Assembly (NCBI GenBank): GCA_024743195.1
Contig: JANSXE010000005.1
Location: 248,001 to 312,000, forward strand
Source of the DNA: Alphaproteobacteria bacterium
GTDB lineage: Bacteria; Pseudomonadota; Alphaproteobacteria; UBA8366; Aestuariispiraceae
Length of the DNA: 64,000 bases
Direction: 5' to 3'
The notes beneath the pieces were generated by a model. It searched no databases. It worked only from the letters and a program-made list of their open reading frames with translations, and had not been told where the DNA came from. Of the stretch, positions 847 through 50,131 are shown in pieces (within the stretch, counting starts at the first letter, position 1; each line of letters starts with the position of its first letter). Both the position numbers and the translations under genes were made by a program.

Positions 847-3501
847 ATGCCCCAGACGTCCGAAAGCACAGGCCTGACCAGCGAGGAAGCCGCACGCCGG
901 TTGGCCGAAGCGGGTCCGAACCGCCTGCCGGAACCGAAACTCCCCGGCCCGGCGATGATCTTCCTGCGCCAGTTCCGCAACCCGTTCATCTATATCCTGA
1001 TCGTCGCGGCGATCGTCTCGCTGATCATCGGCCAGATCCCGAGCACGGTCTTCATCGTCGCCGTGCTGCTGCTCAACGCGGTGATCGGCGCCATCCAGGA
1101 ATACTCGGCGCAGAAGTCGGCCTCCGCGCTGCGCAAGATGGTGCGCGGCGCAACGCACGTGATCCGCGACGGCGTCGCCCAGACGATCGACGTCGAGGCC
1201 CTGGTTCCCGGCGATCTCGTGCTGCTCTCCTCCGGCGACAAGGCCCCGGCGGACATCCGCCTGACGCTGAGCCAGAACCTCGCCGTCGATGAATCCATGC
1301 TGACCGGCGAGTCGCTGGTCGTCACCAAGAACGCCGACGCCCGCCCGGCCGAGGACGCCCCGCTGGCGGAGCGTTTCAACCAGGCCTTCGCCGGGTCGAT
1401 CATCACCCGCGGGCGCGGGCGGGGCGTGGTGGCGGCGACCGGCCTCGGCACCCAGATCGGCAAGATCTCGAAGGTCGTCGGCGCGGAGCGGTTGAGCGAA
1501 CCGCCGTTGATGATCCGCATCCGACGCTTCACCTATCAGGTCGCCGGCGGGATTCTGGGCGCAATCGCCCTGCTGGTCGGGCTGATGCTCGTGATGGGCG
1601 GCTATGACGGCCAGGAGATGGCGCTGATGAGCATCGGGCTCGCCGTCTCGACCATTCCGGAGGGTCTGCCGGCGGCGCTGACGGTGGCGCTCGCCATCGG
1701 CATGGCGCGCATGGCGCACCGCAACGTCATCATCCGCAAGCTGGTGGCGGTGGAGGCGCTCGGCTCCTGCACCTTCATCTGCTCCGACAAGACCGGCACG
1801 CTGACGGTCAACGAGCTCACCATCCGCAAGGTCGTGCTGCCCGGCGGCCAGGTGTGCGAGGCGACCGGCTCCGGCGTCGCGCCCGGGACCGTCGAGGCCT
1901 ACGGCCAGGAGGAGCGGCTGAAGGACATCTGCGTCACCGGCGTGCTCGCGAACGAAAGCTATCTCGACTATTCCGGCGGCGAGTGGGTCTCGGACGGCGA
2001 CATCGTCGACGTCGCCTTCCTGGTGCTGGCGAAGAAGCTGGGGCTCTCCGTCTCGCAGATCCGCGAGCGCGAGCGGCAGCTCGACCTGATCCCCTACGAG
2101 TCGGAGCGCGCCTTTTCCGGCAGCCTGACCCGCGGCGGCGACGGCGACGGCGCGATCCTGCACGTCAAGGGCAGCCCGGAGAAGATGCTCGCGCTCTCCA
2201 CCCACATGCTGACCCGCGAGGGGCGGCTGCCGATCGACCGGACGGCGATCGAGACGCAGTTCGAAGCGCTGGCGTCGGAGGGATTCCGGGTGATCGCGCT
2301 GGCCCGGCGCGAGGCGCTGGAGCCGGATGCGGAGGATCCGGAGGCGCTCGACCATCTGGAGGCGCTGACCTTCCTCGGCATGGTCGCGATGATCGATCCG
2401 ATCCGCCCGGACGCGAAGGAGGCGGTGCAGCGCTGCCGCAGCGGCGGCGTGCAGGTGGCGATGGTGACCGGCGACCATCCGGCCACCGCCCGCGCGATCG
2501 CGCGCGACCTCGGCCTGATCGATCCGGAGGACCCGGTCGTCACCGGCGCCGACATCCGCCATGCGGCCCCGGAGGCGCTGCCCGACCTGATTCGAGGCGC
2601 GCGCGTCTTCGCGCGCATCGAGCCGATGCAGAAACAGACCATCGTCGAGACCTTCATGGCCGACGGTCACTTCGTCGCCGTCACCGGCGACGGGGTCAAC
2701 GACGCGCCGGCCATGCGTCGGGCCAACGCCGGCGTGGCGATGGGCAAGCGCGGCACCGATGTGGCGAAGGAGGCGGCCGACCTGATCATCACCGACGACA
2801 AGTTCTCCTCCATCGTCGCGGGGATCGAGCAGGGCCGCATCGTCTACAACAACATCCGCAAGGTGATCGCGCTTCTGATCGCGACCGGCGCGTCGGCGCT
2901 GATCCTGTTCTTCCTGTCGGTGCTGGCGGGTCTGCCGATGCCGCTGACGGCGGTGCAGCTCTTGTGGCTGAACCTCGTCGCCAACGGGCTGCAGGATGTG
3001 GCGCTCGCCTTCGAGCCGAAGGAGGGCGGCGAACTCGACCGTCCGCCGCGCCGGCCGAACGAGCCGATCTTCGAACGCCGCATCCTGGAGCACGTCCTGA
3101 TCGCCGGCGGCGCGATGGGCGTGCTGGCCTTCCTGGTCTTCTGGGGCCTGAACGCGCAGGATGCGCCGGTCGAGGAGGCGCGCAACCTGACGCTCATGCT
3201 GATGGTGCTGTTCGGCAACATCCATGCGCTCTCCAGCCGGTCGGAGACGCGCTCGCTGTTCCAAATCCGCTTCTTCGCCAACCCCTTCCTGGTGCTGGCG
3301 GTTCCGGGGGCGCAGCTCGTCCATATCGGGGCGATGTACACGCCGGGCCTCGGCGACGTGCTGGCGCTTAACCCGATCGGGCTCCTGGAGTGGCTGGGGC
3401 TCGCAGCCGTCGCCCTGCTGCTGCTCGCGGTGGAGGAGGCGCACAAGGCGCATCTGCGCCACAAGGTGGCGCAGGCCGCGGAGCGCGCCGCCCGCGCCTG
3501 A
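847..3501 (+). CDS. P2-type cation-transporting ATPase
   Basis: An 884-residue P-type ATPase of the size expected for Ca2+/Na+-like pumps without an N-terminal metal-binding domain. It has the actuator TGES loop (about 152-155), the M4 motif TIPEGLP (269-275), the phosphorylation motif DKTGTLT with Asp314 as phosphoacceptor, and the hinge TGDGVNDAPA (about 613-622). About ten membrane helices are expected. Glu272 in M4 matches the Ca2+-site glutamate of SERCA-like pumps. In M6 the sequence is NLVANGLQD (709-717): the place of the SERCA aspartate in NLVTDG is taken by Asn713, so the transported ion is uncertain. It stands alone between a glycosyltransferase-like gene and the convergent pdxY. 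The ATG at 847 is the first start before the N-terminal cation-ATPase domain. Confidence 0.93.
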   Translation: MPQTSESTGLTSEEAARRLAEAGPNRLPEPKLPGPAMIFLRQFRNPFIYILIVAAIVSLIIGQIPSTVFIVAVLLLNAVIGAIQEYSAQKSASALRKMVRGATHVIRDGVAQTIDVEALVPGDLVLLSSGDKAPADIRLTLSQNLAVDESMLTGESLVVTKNADARPAEDAPLAERFNQAFAGSIITRGRGRGVVAATGLGTQIGKISKVVGAERLSEPPLMIRIRRFTYQVAGGILGAIALLVGLMLVMGGYDGQEMALMSIGLAVSTIPEGLPAALTVALAIGMARMAHRNVIIRKLVAVEALGSCTFICSDKTGTLTVNELTIRKVVLPGGQVCEATGSGVAPGTVEAYGQEERLKDICVTGVLANESYLDYSGGEWVSDGDIVDVAFLVLAKKLGLSVSQIRERERQLDLIPYESERAFSGSLTRGGDGDGAILHVKGSPEKMLALSTHMLTREGRLPIDRTAIETQFEALASEGFRVIALARREALEPDAEDPEALDHLEALTFLGMVAMIDPIRPDAKEAVQRCRSGGVQVAMVTGDHPATARAIARDLGLIDPEDPVVTGADIRHAAPEALPDLIRGARVFARIEPMQKQTIVETFMADGHFVAVTGDGVNDAPAMRRANAGVAMGKRGTDVAKEAADLIITDDKFSSIVAGIEQGRIVYNNIRKVIALLIATGASALILFFLSVLAGLPMPLTAVQLLWLNLVANGLQDVALAFEPKEGGELDRPPRRPNEPIFERRILEHVLIAGGAMGVLAFLVFWGLNAQDAPVEEARNLTLMLMVLFGNIHALSSRSETRSLFQIRFFANPFLVLAVPGAQLVHIGAMYTPGLGDVLALNPIGLLEWLGLAAVALLLLAVEEAHKAHLRHKVAQAAERAARA

Positions 3502-7620: not shown

Positions 7621-7638
7621 GCGCCGCCTGGAAAGAGA

Positions 7639-7680
7639 AGAGGCCCCGGCGGCGCCCGAAGGCGCGCGGCCGAGGCCTCT
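7639..7680 (+). terminator. Hairpin after the lyase-hydratase pair
   Basis: AGAGGCC (7639-7645) pairs with GGCCTCT (7674-7680) around an inner GCGCC-CGAA-GGCGC stem, 18 bases after the mch stop. There is no T-run, so it may be a weak terminator or a 3' end stabiliser. Confidence 0.45.
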
Positions 7681-8665
7681 CCCTGGTCCGCAGGCCGGCG
7701 CCCCCGAAGGGTCGTCGTCCCGAAGGACCCGGCGATCCGGCGGGATCGCCTTCAGGTCGCGGACGCCTCGGGGCGGCTGCGTCCGGGCCGCTCGGGGGCC
7801 GAAACCCCCGGGCCGTCCGTCCGCCGTCGTCCGCCGCGCGTCGGGCGGGATCGGTTTCCAGTCGGCGCGCCGTCCGTTGTCCCGGTCACCCTGGCAAAGC
7901 ACCAAGAATCCGGTCGGCCGCCCAAGAACCCGATCCGAATCGCCCGCGCGTCGCGGTCGGCCGCCGTCGCATCGTCTCCCGTCCGGTCCCGCCGCACGTC
8001 GCCGCGCCACTGACCAAGCCGGGGCCGATCCGCCGGCCCGTCCCGAACCAAGCGCCGCCGCAGCAGGTCCGAAACATGCGGGACGAGCCCGCACCCCTCG
8101 ATGACTCCGCCGCACCCGACCGCCGCGCGCCCGCCGCCCGTCCGCCGGTCACACCCCCTGAGGGAGCGCATCCGACGCCCGAACCGCACGGGAGCCGCCG
8201 GCCGCCGCCTTCCGGTTGCAGGATCCGCCCGGACCGCGCGCCGCGCATCCGAAGATGCGCGAGGCCCGCGGCCGTGTGGGCTGGATCAAGCCCGTCCGGC
8301 GGGGCGCCGCCCCCGATCCGCCGGCCGACGCCCGCCTTGCGACGGGACGTCGAACGTCGAGCCGGGGACTGCGGTTCCCCGTCGGCCGCCCGAAGACGGC
8401 CGCCGGAACAGAGCGCGCCGATCCCCGCCTTGCGGCGGAGGGGCCGGTCCGCCGGGGGTGAGCCCGGCCGCCTGACCCGACGGCTCCGCGACCCCGCAAG
8501 GTCGCTTCGCCGCCCGCGGGCGCGCTCCCCGACGCCTCGCTGCGCCCCTCCGCTTCGGCGGTCCCGGCGCCGAAGCGCCCTTATCCGACCGAAACCGAAC
8601 GACGCCGCTTATCGTCGGCGCATCCGCGTGAGAAATAGTCTGAGCCAGGGCTTGACCGCCTGTCC
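7681..8665. other. Gene-free, very GC-rich block of about 1 kb
   Basis: No convincing gene is seen on either strand. Frames open here translate to Arg/Pro/Gly-rich sequence without any family signature and coexist on both strands, as expected from GC-rich non-coding DNA. GANTC sites (CcrM-type methylation targets) occur at 7906-7910, 7937-7941 and 8103-8107. I recognise no tRNA, tmRNA, RNase P or SRP RNA consensus. The block runs directly into the AT-rich DnaA-box segment that follows. Confidence 0.55.
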
Positions 8666-8790
8666 ATGAAAAAGTAAAACCCGCCCTGTATTTCTTGTTG
8701 ATAAAGAATTTTCTTCATCACATCTTAATAACAATTTATCAACAGACTTATCCACAGGCCATTGATTTCATCAAGAGCGTCAAATACTTC
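8666..8790. other. AT-rich segment with DnaA-box cluster and a CtrA-like site; candidate replication origin
   Basis: Bases 8691-8750 are about 23% GC, inside surroundings of roughly 70%. A perfect DnaA box TTATCCACA lies at 8748-8756. TTATCAACA at 8736-8744 and its reverse complement TGTTGATAA at 8696-8704 form an inverted pair. TTAA-N7-TTAT (8725-8739), one mismatch from the CtrA consensus TTAA-N7-TTAA, overlaps the middle DnaA box, as CtrA and DnaA sites do in the Caulobacter origin. A weaker TTATCCGAC lies near 8580. Clustered boxes, a low-melting stretch and over 1 kb without genes together fit an origin. Against it: the usual alphaproteobacterial neighbours (hemE, rho, parAB, dnaA) are not within this window. 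Confidence 0.45.
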
Positions 8791-8999
8791 CCGCACCGCA
8801 ACACGCGTTGCCGCCGTGGGGCGCGCCGAGCCGGACCCGCCCGGACGCCGTCAGCCGTCGACCCCGGGGCCGCGAGGACCGGGGCTTCCGCACGGCGCCC
8901 CTCGCCATCGGGCGCCTGCGGGCCGTCGCGGAGGCGAGATTTCGCGCGCCGGCGCGGGTCGCGTGCGGGCGTCCCGACGGACGCTCCCGCATCCTTGTG

Positions 9000-9043
9000 C
9001 TGCAGTGCAAAAGCTTTGACAGACCGGGCAATCGGCTTAGGTT
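9000..9043 (+). promoter_or_regulatory. Probable sdh promoter with upstream TGC-rich element
   Basis: TTGACA at 9016-9021 is followed after 16 bp by TAGGTT (9038-9043), a plausible sigma-70 promoter about 50 bp upstream of sdhC. Just upstream, CTGC-AGT-GCAA (9000-9010) resembles the CTGC-N3-GCAG sites bound by PhaR-type regulators and shares TGCAGTGCA with the phasin promoter at 37.48 kb. Confidence 0.5.
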
Positions 9044-9091
9044 ACGCACCCTAGTTAGCTTGACGCGCACCGTTTCGAGGGGGCTTTCGCC

Positions 9092-9478
9092 ATGAAAAGC
9101 CAGAACCGCCCGCTGTCCCCGCATCTTCAGATCTATCGCTGGCAGTGGACGATGCTGTACTCGATCCTGCATCGGGCCACCGGGATTGCGCTCGGCGCCG
9201 GAACCCTGTTGCTGGTCTGGTGGTTGCTGGCGCTGGCTGGCGGACCGGACGCCTTCGCCGCAGCGAACGGCTTCATCGGGAGCATCCTGGGGCAATTGAT
9301 GCTGCTCGGCTGGACCTGGGCCCTGATGTATCACTTCGGGAACGGGGTGCGGCATCTGGTTTGGGACGCGGGCTACGGCTTCGATCTCGACGTCGCGCGG
9401 CTGAGCGGTCACGCAATGGCCGCGATCTCCGGCGCGCTGACGGTCCTGATCTGGATCGTCGGCTATGCGACGCTCTGA
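9092..9478 (+). CDS. sdhC: Succinate dehydrogenase cytochrome b556 subunit
   Basis: A 128-residue membrane anchor of complex II. It has the signature SPHLQIYRWQW near residues 9-19, three hydrophobic helices and HFGNGVRHLVWD at about 86-97, whose first His is the expected haem b axial ligand. It binds haem and, with SdhD, the quinone site in the inner membrane. The start has GAGGGGG eight bases upstream. It is first of sdhC-sdhD-sdhA-sdhB, with 27 bp to sdhD. The promoter at about 9016-9043 probably drives the operon. Confidence 0.95.
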   Translation: MKSQNRPLSPHLQIYRWQWTMLYSILHRATGIALGAGTLLLVWWLLALAGGPDAFAAANGFIGSILGQLMLLGWTWALMYHFGNGVRHLVWDAGYGFDLDVARLSGHAMAAISGALTVLIWIVGYATL

Positions 9479-10001: not shown

Positions 10002-11795
10002 ATGACCGAGTCCTACGAGATCATCGACCACACCTACGACGTCGTCGTCGTCGGCGCCGGCGGCGCGGGCCTGCGGGCCACCTTCGGACTGGCCGAGGCC
10101 GGGCTGAAGACCGCCTGCATCACCAAGGTCTTCCCGACGCGCAGTCACACGGTGGCGGCGCAGGGCGGCGTCTCGGCGGCGCTCGGCAATATGGGGCCGG
10201 ACGATTGGCGCTGGCACATGTACGACACGGTCAAGGGCTCCGACTGGCTCGGCGACCAGGATTCGATCGAGTACATGGTGCGCGAGGCCGCGCCGGCGAT
10301 CATCGAGCTCGAGCATTACGGCGTGCCCTTCAGCCGCACCGAGGACGGCAAGATCTATCAGCGCCCCTTCGGCGGCATGACGACGAAGTTCGGCGAAGGC
10401 CCGCCGGCCCAGCGCACCTGCGCCGCCGCCGACCGCACCGGGCACGCCATGCTGCACACGCTCTACCAGCAGGCGATCAAGCATAACGCGGAATTCTATA
10501 TCGAGTATTTCGCGGTCGATCTGATCATGGACGAGGACGGCGCCTGCCGCGGCGTGCTCGCCTGGAACCTGGACGACGGCACGCTGCACCGCTTTGCGGC
10601 CAAGCAGACGGTGTTGGCGACGGGCGGCTACGGCCGGGTCTATTTCTCGGCCACCAGCGCCCACACCTGCACCGGCGACGGCGGCGGCATGGTGCTGCGC
10701 GCCGGCCTGCCGCTGCAGGACAGCGAGTTCGTGCAGTTCCACCCGACCGGCATCTACGGCGCGGGCTGCCTGATCACCGAGGGCGTGCGCGGCGAAGGCG
10801 GCTATCTGACCAATTCCGAGGGCGAGCGCTTCATGGAGCGCTACGCCCCCTCCGCCAAGGACCTGGCCAGCCGCGACGTGGTCAGCCGCTCCATGACCAT
10901 CGAGATTCGCGAGGGCCGCGGCGTCGGCGCCAACAACGACCACATCCATCTGCATCTGGAGCATCTGCCGCCGGAAGTGATCAACGAGCGCCTGCCCGGC
11001 ATCGCGGAGACGGCGAAGATCTTCGCCGGCGTCGACGTCACCAAGGAGCCGATCCCGGTGCTGCCGACCTGCCACTACAATATGGGCGGCATCCAGACGA
11101 ACTATCACGGCGAGGTCGTCACCCTGAAGAACGGCGACCCGAACAGCGTCGTCCCGGGCCTGATGGCGGCGGGCGAGAGCGCCTGCGTCTCGGTGCACGG
11201 CGCCAACCGGCTGGGCTCCAACTCGCTGCTCGACCTGGTGGTGTTCGGCCGCTCGGTCGCGCTGCATTGCGCGGAGACGCTGGACCCGGCCGACAAGACG
11301 CGGCCGCTCGACAAGGGCGCCGGCGAGGAAGCCATCGCGCGCCTCGACCGGCTGCGGCACGCCCAGGGCTCGACCCCCACGGCGGACCTGCGCGCGCAGA
11401 TGCAGCAGACCATGCAGAACAACTGCGCCGTCTTCCGGACCGGCGAGGTCCTGGACGAAGGCGTGCAGAAGATGCAGGAGGTCTGGCGCGGCTTCGAAGA
11501 CGTGCGCGTGTCCGACTCCAGCATGATCTGGAACTCCGACCTCGTCGAAACGCTGGAGTTCGAGAACCTGATCGGCAACGCGATGGTCACCATCGTCGGC
11601 GCGGCCAACCGGACCGAAAGCCGCGGCGCCCACGCCCGCGAGGACTATCCGGACCGCAACGACGACGACTGGATGAAGCACACGCTCGCCTGGTGCGACG
11701 ACAAGGGCCAGGTGAAGATCGACTATCGCCCGGTGACGCTCAAGCCGATGACGAACGACGTGCAGGCCTTCCCGCCGAAGGCGCGGGTCTACTGA
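10002..11795 (+). CDS. sdhA: Succinate dehydrogenase flavoprotein subunit
   Basis: A 597-residue flavoprotein oxidising succinate to fumarate in the TCA cycle and respiratory chain. The FAD Rossmann motif [16 protein letters not shown] lies near residue 15; the covalent-FAD His is in [39 protein letters not shown] and [19 protein letters not shown] form the rest of the FAD and dicarboxylate sites. The length is typical. The C-terminal KARVY ending is also typical. A short tandem 13-bp repeat begins immediately after the stop, and sdhB follows after 86 bp. Confidence 0.97.
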
Positions 11796-11881: not shown

Positions 11882-12664
11882 ATGGCTGAATTCGCGCTGC
11901 CCGCGAACTCCAAGATCGGCAAGGGCAAGACGTGGCCGACCAAGGACGGCGGCAAGAAGGTCAAGCGCTTCAACGTCTATCGCTGGAACCCGGATTCGGG
12001 CGAGACGCCGACGGTCGACACCTACGAGATCGACCTGGAGGCCTGCGGTCCGATGGTTCTGGACGCGCTGATCAAGATCAAGAACGAGGTCGATCAGACG
12101 CTCACCTTCCGCCGCTCCTGCCGCGAGGGCATCTGCGGTTCCTGCGCCATGAACATCGACGGGACGAACACGCTCGCCTGCACCAAGTTCATCGACGAGG
12201 TCGACGGCGACGTCGCCATCTACCCGCTGCCGCATATGGAGGTGGTCAAGGATCTGGTGCCGGATCTGACGCGCGCCTATGCGCAGCTTTCCGCGATCGA
12301 GCCGTGGCTCAAGACCGCGAGCCCCACGCCGCCGGACAAGGAGCGCCTGCAGGCGCCGGAGGACCGCAAGAAGCTCGACGGGCTCTATGAGTGCATCCTG
12401 TGCTTCTGCTGCCAGACCTCCTGCCCGAGCTACTGGTGGAACGGCGAGCGCTATCTCGGCCCGGCGATCCTGCTGCAGGCCTATCGCTGGCTGGCGGACA
12501 GCCGCGACGAGATGACGGGAGAGCGGCTCGACCAGCTCGAGGATCCGTTCCGGCTCTATCGCTGCCACACCATCATGAACTGCTCCAAGACCTGCCCGAA
12601 GGGCCTGAACCCGGCCAAGGCGATCGCGGAGATCAAGAAGATGATGTTGGCGCGCCAGGCGTAG
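11882..12664 (+). CDS. sdhB: Succinate dehydrogenase iron-sulfur subunit
   Basis: A 260-residue ferredoxin-type subunit carrying electrons from SdhA-FAD to the membrane quinone. It shows all three cluster motifs: [16 protein letters not shown] with a downstream Cys for [2Fe-2S], [17 protein letters not shown] for [4Fe-4S], and [17 protein letters not shown] for the [3Fe-4S] cluster. Length and motif order are standard, and the SPSYWW-type quinone-site tryptophans are kept. It ends the sdh operon; a REP-like palindrome lies about 45 bp downstream. Confidence 0.97.
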
Positions 12665-47764: not shown

Positions 47765-49771
47765 TCAACCGTTCGGGTGGAAATGGTCGTAGATGCGCCG
47801 CGCCACCGTTGCCGAGACCCCGTCGACCCGCTGCAGATCGGCCAGACCGGCGCGCGCCACCGCCTTGGCCGATCCGAAATGCAGCAGCAGCGCTTTCTTG
47901 CGCTTCGCCCCGACGCCCGGCACCTCGTCCAGCGGCGAGTCGCCCAGGGCCTTTGTGCGCCGTTGCCGGTGGGAGCCGATCGCGAAGCGGTGCGCCTCGT
48001 CGCGCAGACGCTGGATGAAATAGAGCACCGGATCGCGCGGCGGCAGCAGGATCGGCCGGTCGCGGCCGGGCAGGATCAGACGCTCGCGCCCCGCCTCGCG
48101 TTCAGGCCCCTTGGCCACGGCCAGGATCGGCACCTCGCCGGCGAGTCCGAGGTCCTCCAGCACCGCGACGGCGCTGGAGAGCTGGCCCTTGCCGCCGTCG
48201 ATCAGCACCAGATCCGGCCAGCTTCCGCCGTCGCGATCCGGGTCCTCCTTCAAGGCGCGGCCGAAGCGCCGTTCGAACACCTCGCGCATCATGGCGTAAT
48301 CGTCGGCCGATTGCGCCGCCGGCGCGTCGACGGCGTCGCGCGACCGGCCGGCGCGGATGTTGAACTTGCGGTACTCCTTCTTCTGCAAGCCGTCGGGGCC
48401 GGCGACGATCATCGCGCCCACCGGCTTGGTTCCGGCGATGTGGCTGTTGTCGTAGACCTCGACCCGTTCGATCCCGCCGCCGATCCCCGCCAGTTCGGCC
48501 AGACCGTCGAGCAGCCTGCGCTGGCTCGCGCTTTCGGCCAGCCGGCGCTCGAGCGCTTCGCGCGCGTTGGTCTCCGCATGCTGGACGACGCTGCGCCGGC
48601 CGCCGCGCTTGGGCGCGACGACCTCCACCTTGCGGCCCGCCTTCAGAGCCAGCGCCTCCTCGAGGAGCGCGCGCTCGGCCGGCTCCTGGTTGAGCAGCAC
48701 CAGCTTCGGCGGCGGCCGGTCCTCGTAGAACTGCCCCAGGAAGGCGGCGATCAGCTGGTCGCGCTCCATCTTCGAATCGTGGCTCGGGAAGTAGGCGCGG
48801 TTCCCGTTGTTGCGGCCGCCGCGAAAGAAGAAGGCCTGGATGCAGCTCTGCCCGCCGGCCTGGTGCAGCGCCACAATGTCGGCGTCGGCGACGCCCTCCA
48901 CATTGATGTCCTGGTGCGACTGCACATGGGCTATGGCGCGAATGCGGTCGCGCAGCAGCGCCGCGCGCTCGAAGTCGAGCGCCTCCGAGGCCGCCTGCAT
49001 GTCGGCCGCCAACCGGTCGTGGATCTCCTTGCCGCGGCCGGAGAGAAAGGCCTTCGCCTGCGCGACCGTCTCGGCGTAGTCCGCCTCGCCGATCCGCCCG
49101 ACGCAGGGCGCGGAGCAACGCTTGATCTGGTACTGCAGGCAGGGTCGGGTGCGGTTGGCGAAGACCGCGTCCGAACAGTTCCGCAACAGGAAGGCCCGCT
49201 GCAGCATGTTGAGCATGCGGTTGACGGCGCCGGCCGAGGCGAAGGGGCCGAAATACGCCCCCGGCTCGCGCCGCGCCCCCCGGTGCTTCAGGATCTGCGG
49301 ATAGGGATGGTCGGTGCGGATCCAGATGTCCGGGAAGGTCTTGTCGTCGCGCAGCAGCACATTGTAGCGCGGCGCCAGGCGCTTGATCAGATTGTTCTCG
49401 AGCAGCAGCGCCTCGACTTCGCTGGCGGTCGAGACGAACTCCATCGAGGCGGTTTCGGCCACCATGCGCTGCAGGCGGATCGGCAGCCGCTCGGGCCGCG
49501 CGTAGGTCGCGACCCGATTGCGCAGATTGGACGCCTTGCCGACATAGAGCGGCTCGCCCTTCGCGTTCAGCATGCGGTAGACGCCGGGTCCGGTTCCGAG
49601 CCGGCCGAGATAGCCGCGCACCACCGCCGCGCCGGCGGCCAGGCGCGCGCCGACGGCCGGCGCGGGCGCCGCCGAGGCCGAGCGGCCCATATTGGCGGGG
49701 CCCGGCTCCGCCTCCCGAGCGGCCTTGTCGGCGCGTCGGCCGGGGCCGGTCTCAATCGCGTCTTTACCCAT
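47765..49771 (-). CDS. uvrC: Excinuclease ABC subunit C
   Basis: A 668-residue nuclease making both incisions in nucleotide excision repair. The N-terminal GIY-YIG domain is seen in [20 protein letters not shown]; then [25 protein letters not shown], the Cys-containing [19 protein letters not shown], a UVR motif ([18 protein letters not shown]), the RNase H-like 3'-incision domain ([13 protein letters not shown]... [13 protein letters not shown]... [12 protein letters not shown]) and C-terminal helix-hairpin-helix ([36 protein letters not shown]). I choose the ATG at 49771 (MGKDAIET); 33 further residues upstream would overlap a palindromic regulatory region. Confidence 0.94.
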
Positions 49772-50131
49772 CGATCCGATCTGCCTGCGACCTGCGGCGT
49801 CTATCCACGATTCTTGTGGATAAGCCTGTTGGCAACCCCGGTGTGAGAGCCGAGCCCCCCGGATTCCCAAGGGCTCGCACCTGTTTGCCTAAGAATTGGG
49901 CAAAAATATTCAACCCATTGGTTTCGAACATATTTTTGTATGTCAACAGCGTTTCAAACCCAAGCTCTGTACGCGGCATCGGTGCTTCGGGGCCCGAAAA
50001 CTGCGGCCTAACCCGCTTGTGCAAAACTCCGGCGGATCGCCGCTGACGGGGGATTTTTTCTTGAGGAGTCAGATCGTTATCGCCCTATTCCTCAATTCCG
50101 AGATTGCACCCGCTGGAGGGACGCACGCGCC
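49772..50131. other. Intergenic region upstream of uvrC with a DnaA-box-like hairpin
   Basis: No gene is supported. TATCCAC (49802-49808) and GTGGATA (49816-49822) form a hairpin or palindrome; the second arm lies in TGTGGATAA (49815-49823), a perfect DnaA box, continuing as AGCCTGTTGG. A related TGTGGATAAGTCTGTTG is the reverse complement of 8740-8756. A GC hairpin (GGTGTGAG...CTCGCACC, about 49839-49882) and an AT-rich stretch (49885-49965) follow. It probably contains the uvrC promoter. Confidence 0.45.

Follow-up and report, generated by a model that had tools for sequence, protein, structure and literature searches.

A five-box DnaA-box array near sdhC, probably not a chromosome origin, and a DARS-core-like element upstream of uvrC in Alphaproteobacteria

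Does an AT-rich cluster of DnaA boxes that lies away from hemE, the usual alphaproteobacterial oriC neighborhood, start replication, or does it act on DnaA in another way? DNA elements that control DnaA are best worked out in Escherichia coli, where datA removes or hydrolyses ATP-DnaA after initiation. The cluster described here was found in a 64,000-nucleotide stretch of DNA (the window; G000:C10:248001-312000) of a 4.17-Mb genome (G000) assembled in 31 contigs. Sequence inspection and a pattern search of the window placed three DnaA boxes inside 61 bp, 8696-8756, with TTATCCACA once on the + strand and TTATCAACA once on each strand, in exact agreement with the boxes named in the initial annotation. 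Two weak boxes and an upstream motif were added by alignment of related copies. The parts of the array, with offsets counted from box I, are:

8662..8673, + strand, motif GTCCA-N3-AAAA, 34 bp 5′ of box I and conserved in the alignment
8696..8704, − strand, DnaA box I, TTATCAACA, 1 mismatch, inverted
8714..8722, + strand, weak DnaA box II, TTCATCACA, offset +18; columns +23..+26 read C23 A27 C27 A26 among 27 copies
8725..8733, + strand, weak DnaA box III, TTAATAACA, offset +29; columns +34..+37 read C21 A25 C24 A21 among 27 copies
8725-8739, CtrA-like TTAA-N7-TTAT, spanning box III into box IV
8736..8744, + strand, DnaA box IV, TTATCAACA, 1 mismatch, offset +40
8748..8756, + strand, DnaA box V, TTATCCACA, perfect, offset +52

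Boxes are enriched in the window, with TTATCCACA at ≤1 mismatch found at 6 sites against 1.61 expected (0/100 shuffles reached 6). This three-box arrangement, spacing included, is unique in the window and was absent from all 100 shuffles at ≤3 mismatches. Starts of the direct boxes are 11, 11, and 12 bp apart, which leaves gaps of 2–3 bp. Weak boxes II and III preserve little beyond the CACA half, both in this sequence and in the aligned copies. The GC content of 8666-8790 is 32.8%, the minimum of all 125-bp stretches (next 42.4%; window 70.4%); the low-GC segment first described in DNA of about 70% GC is thus real, although its GC content is somewhat above the 23–30% claimed. Similarly, the reported 1 kb or so without genes agrees with the lack of any identified gene at 7621-9091, although mechanical ORFs cross the stretch. 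Between the left neighbor gene and the array (window 7650-8600), 100-bp windows have 67–83% GC, and pieces are similar in Marivibrio halodurans (L197). An Rfam search of the window returned no family at its cut-off and no RNA element match. ARAGORN predicted a tRNA-Pro (cgg) at window 871-951 on the − strand, overlapping long mechanical ORFs on both strands.

Conservation was examined with a 181-bp probe, which matched 33 of 98 genomes at E ≤ 0.1, own genome included. Among 30 probe loci (L003-L032), sdhC was found at 7, own included; the other 23 are weak matches outside sdhC. Matches in G001, the sole same-genus relative met, and in G005, G009, G011, G012, and G013 sit upstream of sdhC. To avoid selection on boxes, 134 loci were gathered by SdhC homology; 107 remained after 27 with no start motif or <250 bp upstream were dropped, and 93 after 14 near-duplicates were collapsed. 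An inverted box followed by direct boxes at +40 and +52 is present in 26 of these 93 sdhC-upstream regions (≤5 mismatches over three boxes), so the boxes are conserved in relatives, a check that had been proposed with the initial annotation. This spacing was the top of 720 tried, 561 of which gave zero, in a grid that is not fully independent because the geometry had already been noticed in relatives before the run. The runner-up, +29/+40 (18/93), belongs to the same array.

Alignment used 27 copies out of 28 listed sites (L138 dropped), and the copies are not independent because many come from related genomes. It adds the two direct boxes at +18 and +29, which retain mainly CACA, and the GTCCA-N3-AAAA motif (G21 T20 C24 C14 A25 at −34..−30; A16 A21 A23 A21 at −26..−23). 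The weak-box CACA columns and the −34 motif columns played no role in site selection. A class-wide search found the three-box pattern in 29/289 genomes (reversed control 4/289); the array is therefore the mark of a minority of families. The array lies near sdhC in 14 of the 29 pattern-bearing genomes, and 15 have no copy there. These 15 comprise three with sites upstream of uvrC (L332, L344, and L350), three with strong copies elsewhere (G043, G216, and G295), and nine others. Two of the nine, both small genomes, carry dense DnaA-box clusters that are possibly origins (G066:C78:2304-2364 and G250:C6:59026-59086). The pattern matches beside uvrC hint either that the boxes at two loci are related or that the patterns overlap.

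The succinate dehydrogenase (sdh) features 3′ of the array, all on the + strand, are:

9016..9044, + strand, possible sdh promoter TTGACA-N17-AGGTTA, read by eye
9092..9478, + strand, sdhC, identified by its position ahead of sdhA and sdhB
10002-11795, + strand, sdhA, 3′ of sdhC
11882-12664, + strand, sdhB, 3′ of sdhA

The initial annotation set the array between mch and sdhC. The sdhC side holds, with the gene at 9092 before sdhA and sdhB, and the mch side is only compatible, as ORF 6457-7620 matches CoA-hydratase models below their cut-offs. The left neighbor in Marivibrio halodurans (Rhodospirillales, Aestuariispiraceae) is an aminotransferase-like ORF, judged by eye. As a fixed left neighbor mch was rejected, being found in 1/12 named loci and in 5/12 sdhC-carrying array loci (own included).

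Proximity to sdhC raises the main rival to a role in tuning DnaA, namely control of the sdh operon. The array would then be a distal operator at which DnaA switches sdhCDAB in step with the cell cycle and so couples TCA-cycle flux to replication. This explanation is kept in consideration because the array is near sdhC in those 14 of 29 pattern genomes, to which the 26/93 sdhC loci and the TTGACA that follows the array in all seven family loci checked may be added. Box I stands 215–669 bp from the SdhC motif in the SdhC-homology loci. Against it, the distance from box V to TTGACA varies, at 259 bp here vs 90–117 bp in six relatives, a range of 90 to 259 bp within one family. The array is 3.7 kb upstream of sdhC in G311 and 5.9 kb upstream in G002, where the 650 bp before sdhC hold no boxes, and the strong copies in G043, G216, and G295 are on contigs without sdhC. 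The tie of the array to its neighbor genes is loose, and we regard control of sdh as rather unlikely.

Direct boxes 2–3 bp apart, with strong and weak boxes mixed, are the oriC layout for head-to-tail oligomers of ATP-DnaA. The direct strong and weak boxes of the array, with their close gaps, resemble the DnaA-oligomerization region of E. coli oriC, where boxes in the two oligomer-forming halves are separated by 2–4 bp (PMC5742627). Like datA, the array groups strong and weak DnaA boxes at a non-origin locus distant from oriC. Unlike datA, it has one inverted box, box I, and 11–12 bp spacing, and no IHF consensus was recognized in it by eye; in datA the essential boxes all point the same way, and an IHF site separates boxes 2 and 3 (PMC5742627). 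The likeness to datA would be one of role only, with a different build. According to a 2013 paper, nothing known at that time pointed to functional equivalents of datA on the chromosome of Caulobacter crescentus (PMC3836487).

We favor the reading of the array as a conserved non-origin DnaA site, a five-box oligomer array that titrates or inactivates DnaA in a datA-like role, and give it about an even chance. DnaA binding, its nucleotide dependence, and an effect on initiation are predicted here from sequence. Another account is a passive sink, in which titration of DnaA is all that the boxes do and catalysis plays no part. Strong boxes in a cluster would titrate DnaA, and in Bacillus subtilis and Streptomyces clusters of DnaA boxes are reported to repress initiation at the wrong time (PMC5742627). 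The strict phasing, the inversion of box I, and the −34 motif point instead to a defined complex, so titration as the whole function appears improbable.

The initial annotation gave first place to replication, listing an atypical chromosomal origin, a chromid origin, and a DnaA-regulated locus. Skew was sampled in two closed relatives. For G009 (4.64 Mb), the cumulative GC-skew minimum is at about 1.60–1.68 Mb (20-kb stretches, mostly every 80 kb), with gidA at 1.633 Mb, hemE at 1.655 Mb, and dnaA at 1.487 Mb; the keto-skew minimum falls slightly earlier, at 1.52 Mb. The element of G009 is at 2.510 Mb, and skew is positive on both sides of it. For G002 (20 stretches), the skew changes sign from 600001-620000 (−0.032) to 620001-640000 (+0.028), the two stretches in which gidA (616.5 kb) and hemE (626.1 kb) are located, and the array is at 3.981 Mb within a long run of negative skew. 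The skew minimum is thus at hemE/gidA, 0.86 and 1.0 Mb from the array in the two relatives. Skew on the own contig is weak, and 10-kb bins near the element go from about +0.006 to −0.015 and −0.037, in the opposite sense to an origin. By this sampled skew, taken from relatives since the own genome is in 31 contigs, the array is away from the GC-skew minimum, and the own hemE is on contig C29 with the element on C10.

By eye, DNA upstream of the own hemE is similar to the AT-rich region that precedes hemE in relatives. From this resemblance and the relatives' skew, we infer that oriC of the own genome is upstream of hemE. Against this placement, boxes at ≤1 mismatch are few near hemE, with two in the G009 locus (L110) and zero in that of the own genome (L112). 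A chromid origin is unlikely, as the element is on the single 4.4–4.9 Mb contig with which each of G002, G009, and G011 was assembled. The array also differs from E. coli oriC in its position away from the relatives' skew minimum and from hemE and in having no known unwinding element. An origin role for the array, whether as the main origin of the chromosome or as a second, accessory one, is very improbable: the direct boxes 2–3 bp apart, the adjoining AT-rich DNA, the lowest GC of the window, and the scarcity of boxes near the own hemE speak for it, against the skew minimum at hemE/gidA in both closed relatives, the single sign of skew on both sides of the element, and the slightly positive to negative course on the own contig.

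The reading of the CtrA overlap as Caulobacter-like was also rejected. Caulobacter Cori is AT-rich DNA with DnaA boxes and CtrA sites, and the array shares with it AT-rich DNA, DnaA boxes, and one CtrA-like match, TTAA-N7-TTAT, which does overlap a DnaA box as first reported. Unlike Cori, the array has another gene context, and its CtrA match is unconserved, with exact TTAA-N7-TTAA in 3/27 aligned copies and ≤1 mismatch in 5/27. The match arises because boxes III and IV are two neighboring boxes 11 bp apart, at the box period.

A skew minimum elsewhere, together with no conservation of the boxes, had been named as evidence that would count against the origin. The minimum is indeed elsewhere in two relatives, although the boxes are conserved, and this conservation supports the last of the three options, a putative DnaA-bound non-origin locus. 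On the GC skew of the two closed relatives, the chromosome-origin reading was rejected, and the array is probably not the chromosome origin. It probably tunes DnaA instead of starting replication because the row of boxes is kept though replication starts elsewhere in these relatives.

A scan for tandem boxes across the own genome led to a second DnaA-box element of the window. No two perfect boxes 1–30 bp apart were found in that genome. The features at this locus, 41 kb from the sdhC array, are:

47765..49771, − strand, uvrC, TIGR00194, 517.9 bits, start placed at ATG 49771
49801..49835, + strand, DARS-core-like element, CTATCCACG-5 bp-TGTGGATAA-3 bp-TGTTGGCAA, 0 mismatches to the pattern

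The element is about 30 bp before the likely uvrC start; the longest uvrC ORF extends to 49870 and would overlap it. Compared with TT[AT]TNCACA, box I has 2 mismatches and box III has 3, and the element was found in 0/100 shuffles at ≤3 mismatches. In E. coli, DARS1 lies upstream of uvrB and has the sequence TTATCCACT, 5 bp, TGTGGATAA, 3 bp, TGTGTATTA; the core of DARS2, located between rppH and mutH, has identical spacing (gaps measured on E. coli K-12). The published DARS core likewise consists of three boxes, of which box I faces the opposite way to boxes II and III, and the two copies are spaced alike (PMC5742627). The 49801-49835 element has this structure, with box I opposite boxes II and III and the same 5-bp and 3-bp gaps, and like DARS1 it is upstream of an excinuclease gene. 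It is a DARS core by structure, and ADP-release activity is predicted. The sdhC array was tried as a DARS core and rejected. It has the 3-bp gap between boxes IV and V, but unlike DARS1 and DARS2, it has no convergent box 3′ of box V, where columns +61..+75 carry ≤0.4 bit in the 27 aligned copies.

One form of the DARS-like pattern is present in 13/14 family genomes (control 0), with G002 as the exception. A slightly different form, at ≤2 mismatches, is present in 128/289 alphaproteobacterial genomes (reversed control 0). uvrC adjoins the site in 13/14 family loci and 23/30 class loci, the 44 places tested. One DARS-like site, G270:C4:137853-137887, is on contig C4, perhaps on another replicon. 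The uvrC element may be partly foreseen because a review reports that many proteobacteria conserve DARS1-like and DARS2-like sequences (PMC10380432).

The two loci suggest a model for how they may work together. At the sdhC array, boxes IV and V would anchor DnaA, and the weak boxes II and III would fill only when ATP-DnaA is plentiful, as DnaA spreads from the strong boxes. The DnaA complex would then meet a partner at the −34 motif GTCCA-N3-AAAA. After the hemE origin fires, the complex would remove DnaA from circulation or stimulate its ATP hydrolysis, and the DARS-like element at uvrC would do the opposite by recharging ADP-DnaA. An on/off cycle of DnaA in Alphaproteobacteria with these two elements, in which the uvrC DARS core recharges ADP-DnaA and, in some families, the five-box array near sdhC inactivates ATP-DnaA with a partner at GTCCA-N3-AAAA, is put forward tentatively, at somewhat less than even confidence. 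As a separate observation, a second ORF with the DnaA C-terminal domain, besides dnaA, is present in two of ten genomes searched (G000:C15:395224-395427 and G001:C17:84900-85088); it could be an HdaB-like protein.

In the open-access literature, the titles and abstracts among the matches listed held no report of this array or of a uvrC-upstream DARS in Alphaproteobacteria. The five-box array looks like a new form of non-origin DnaA-box cluster. With a candidate DARS core in 128 of 289 genomes and, near sdhC, a further conserved DnaA array, DnaA recycling in Alphaproteobacteria would become open to direct tests.
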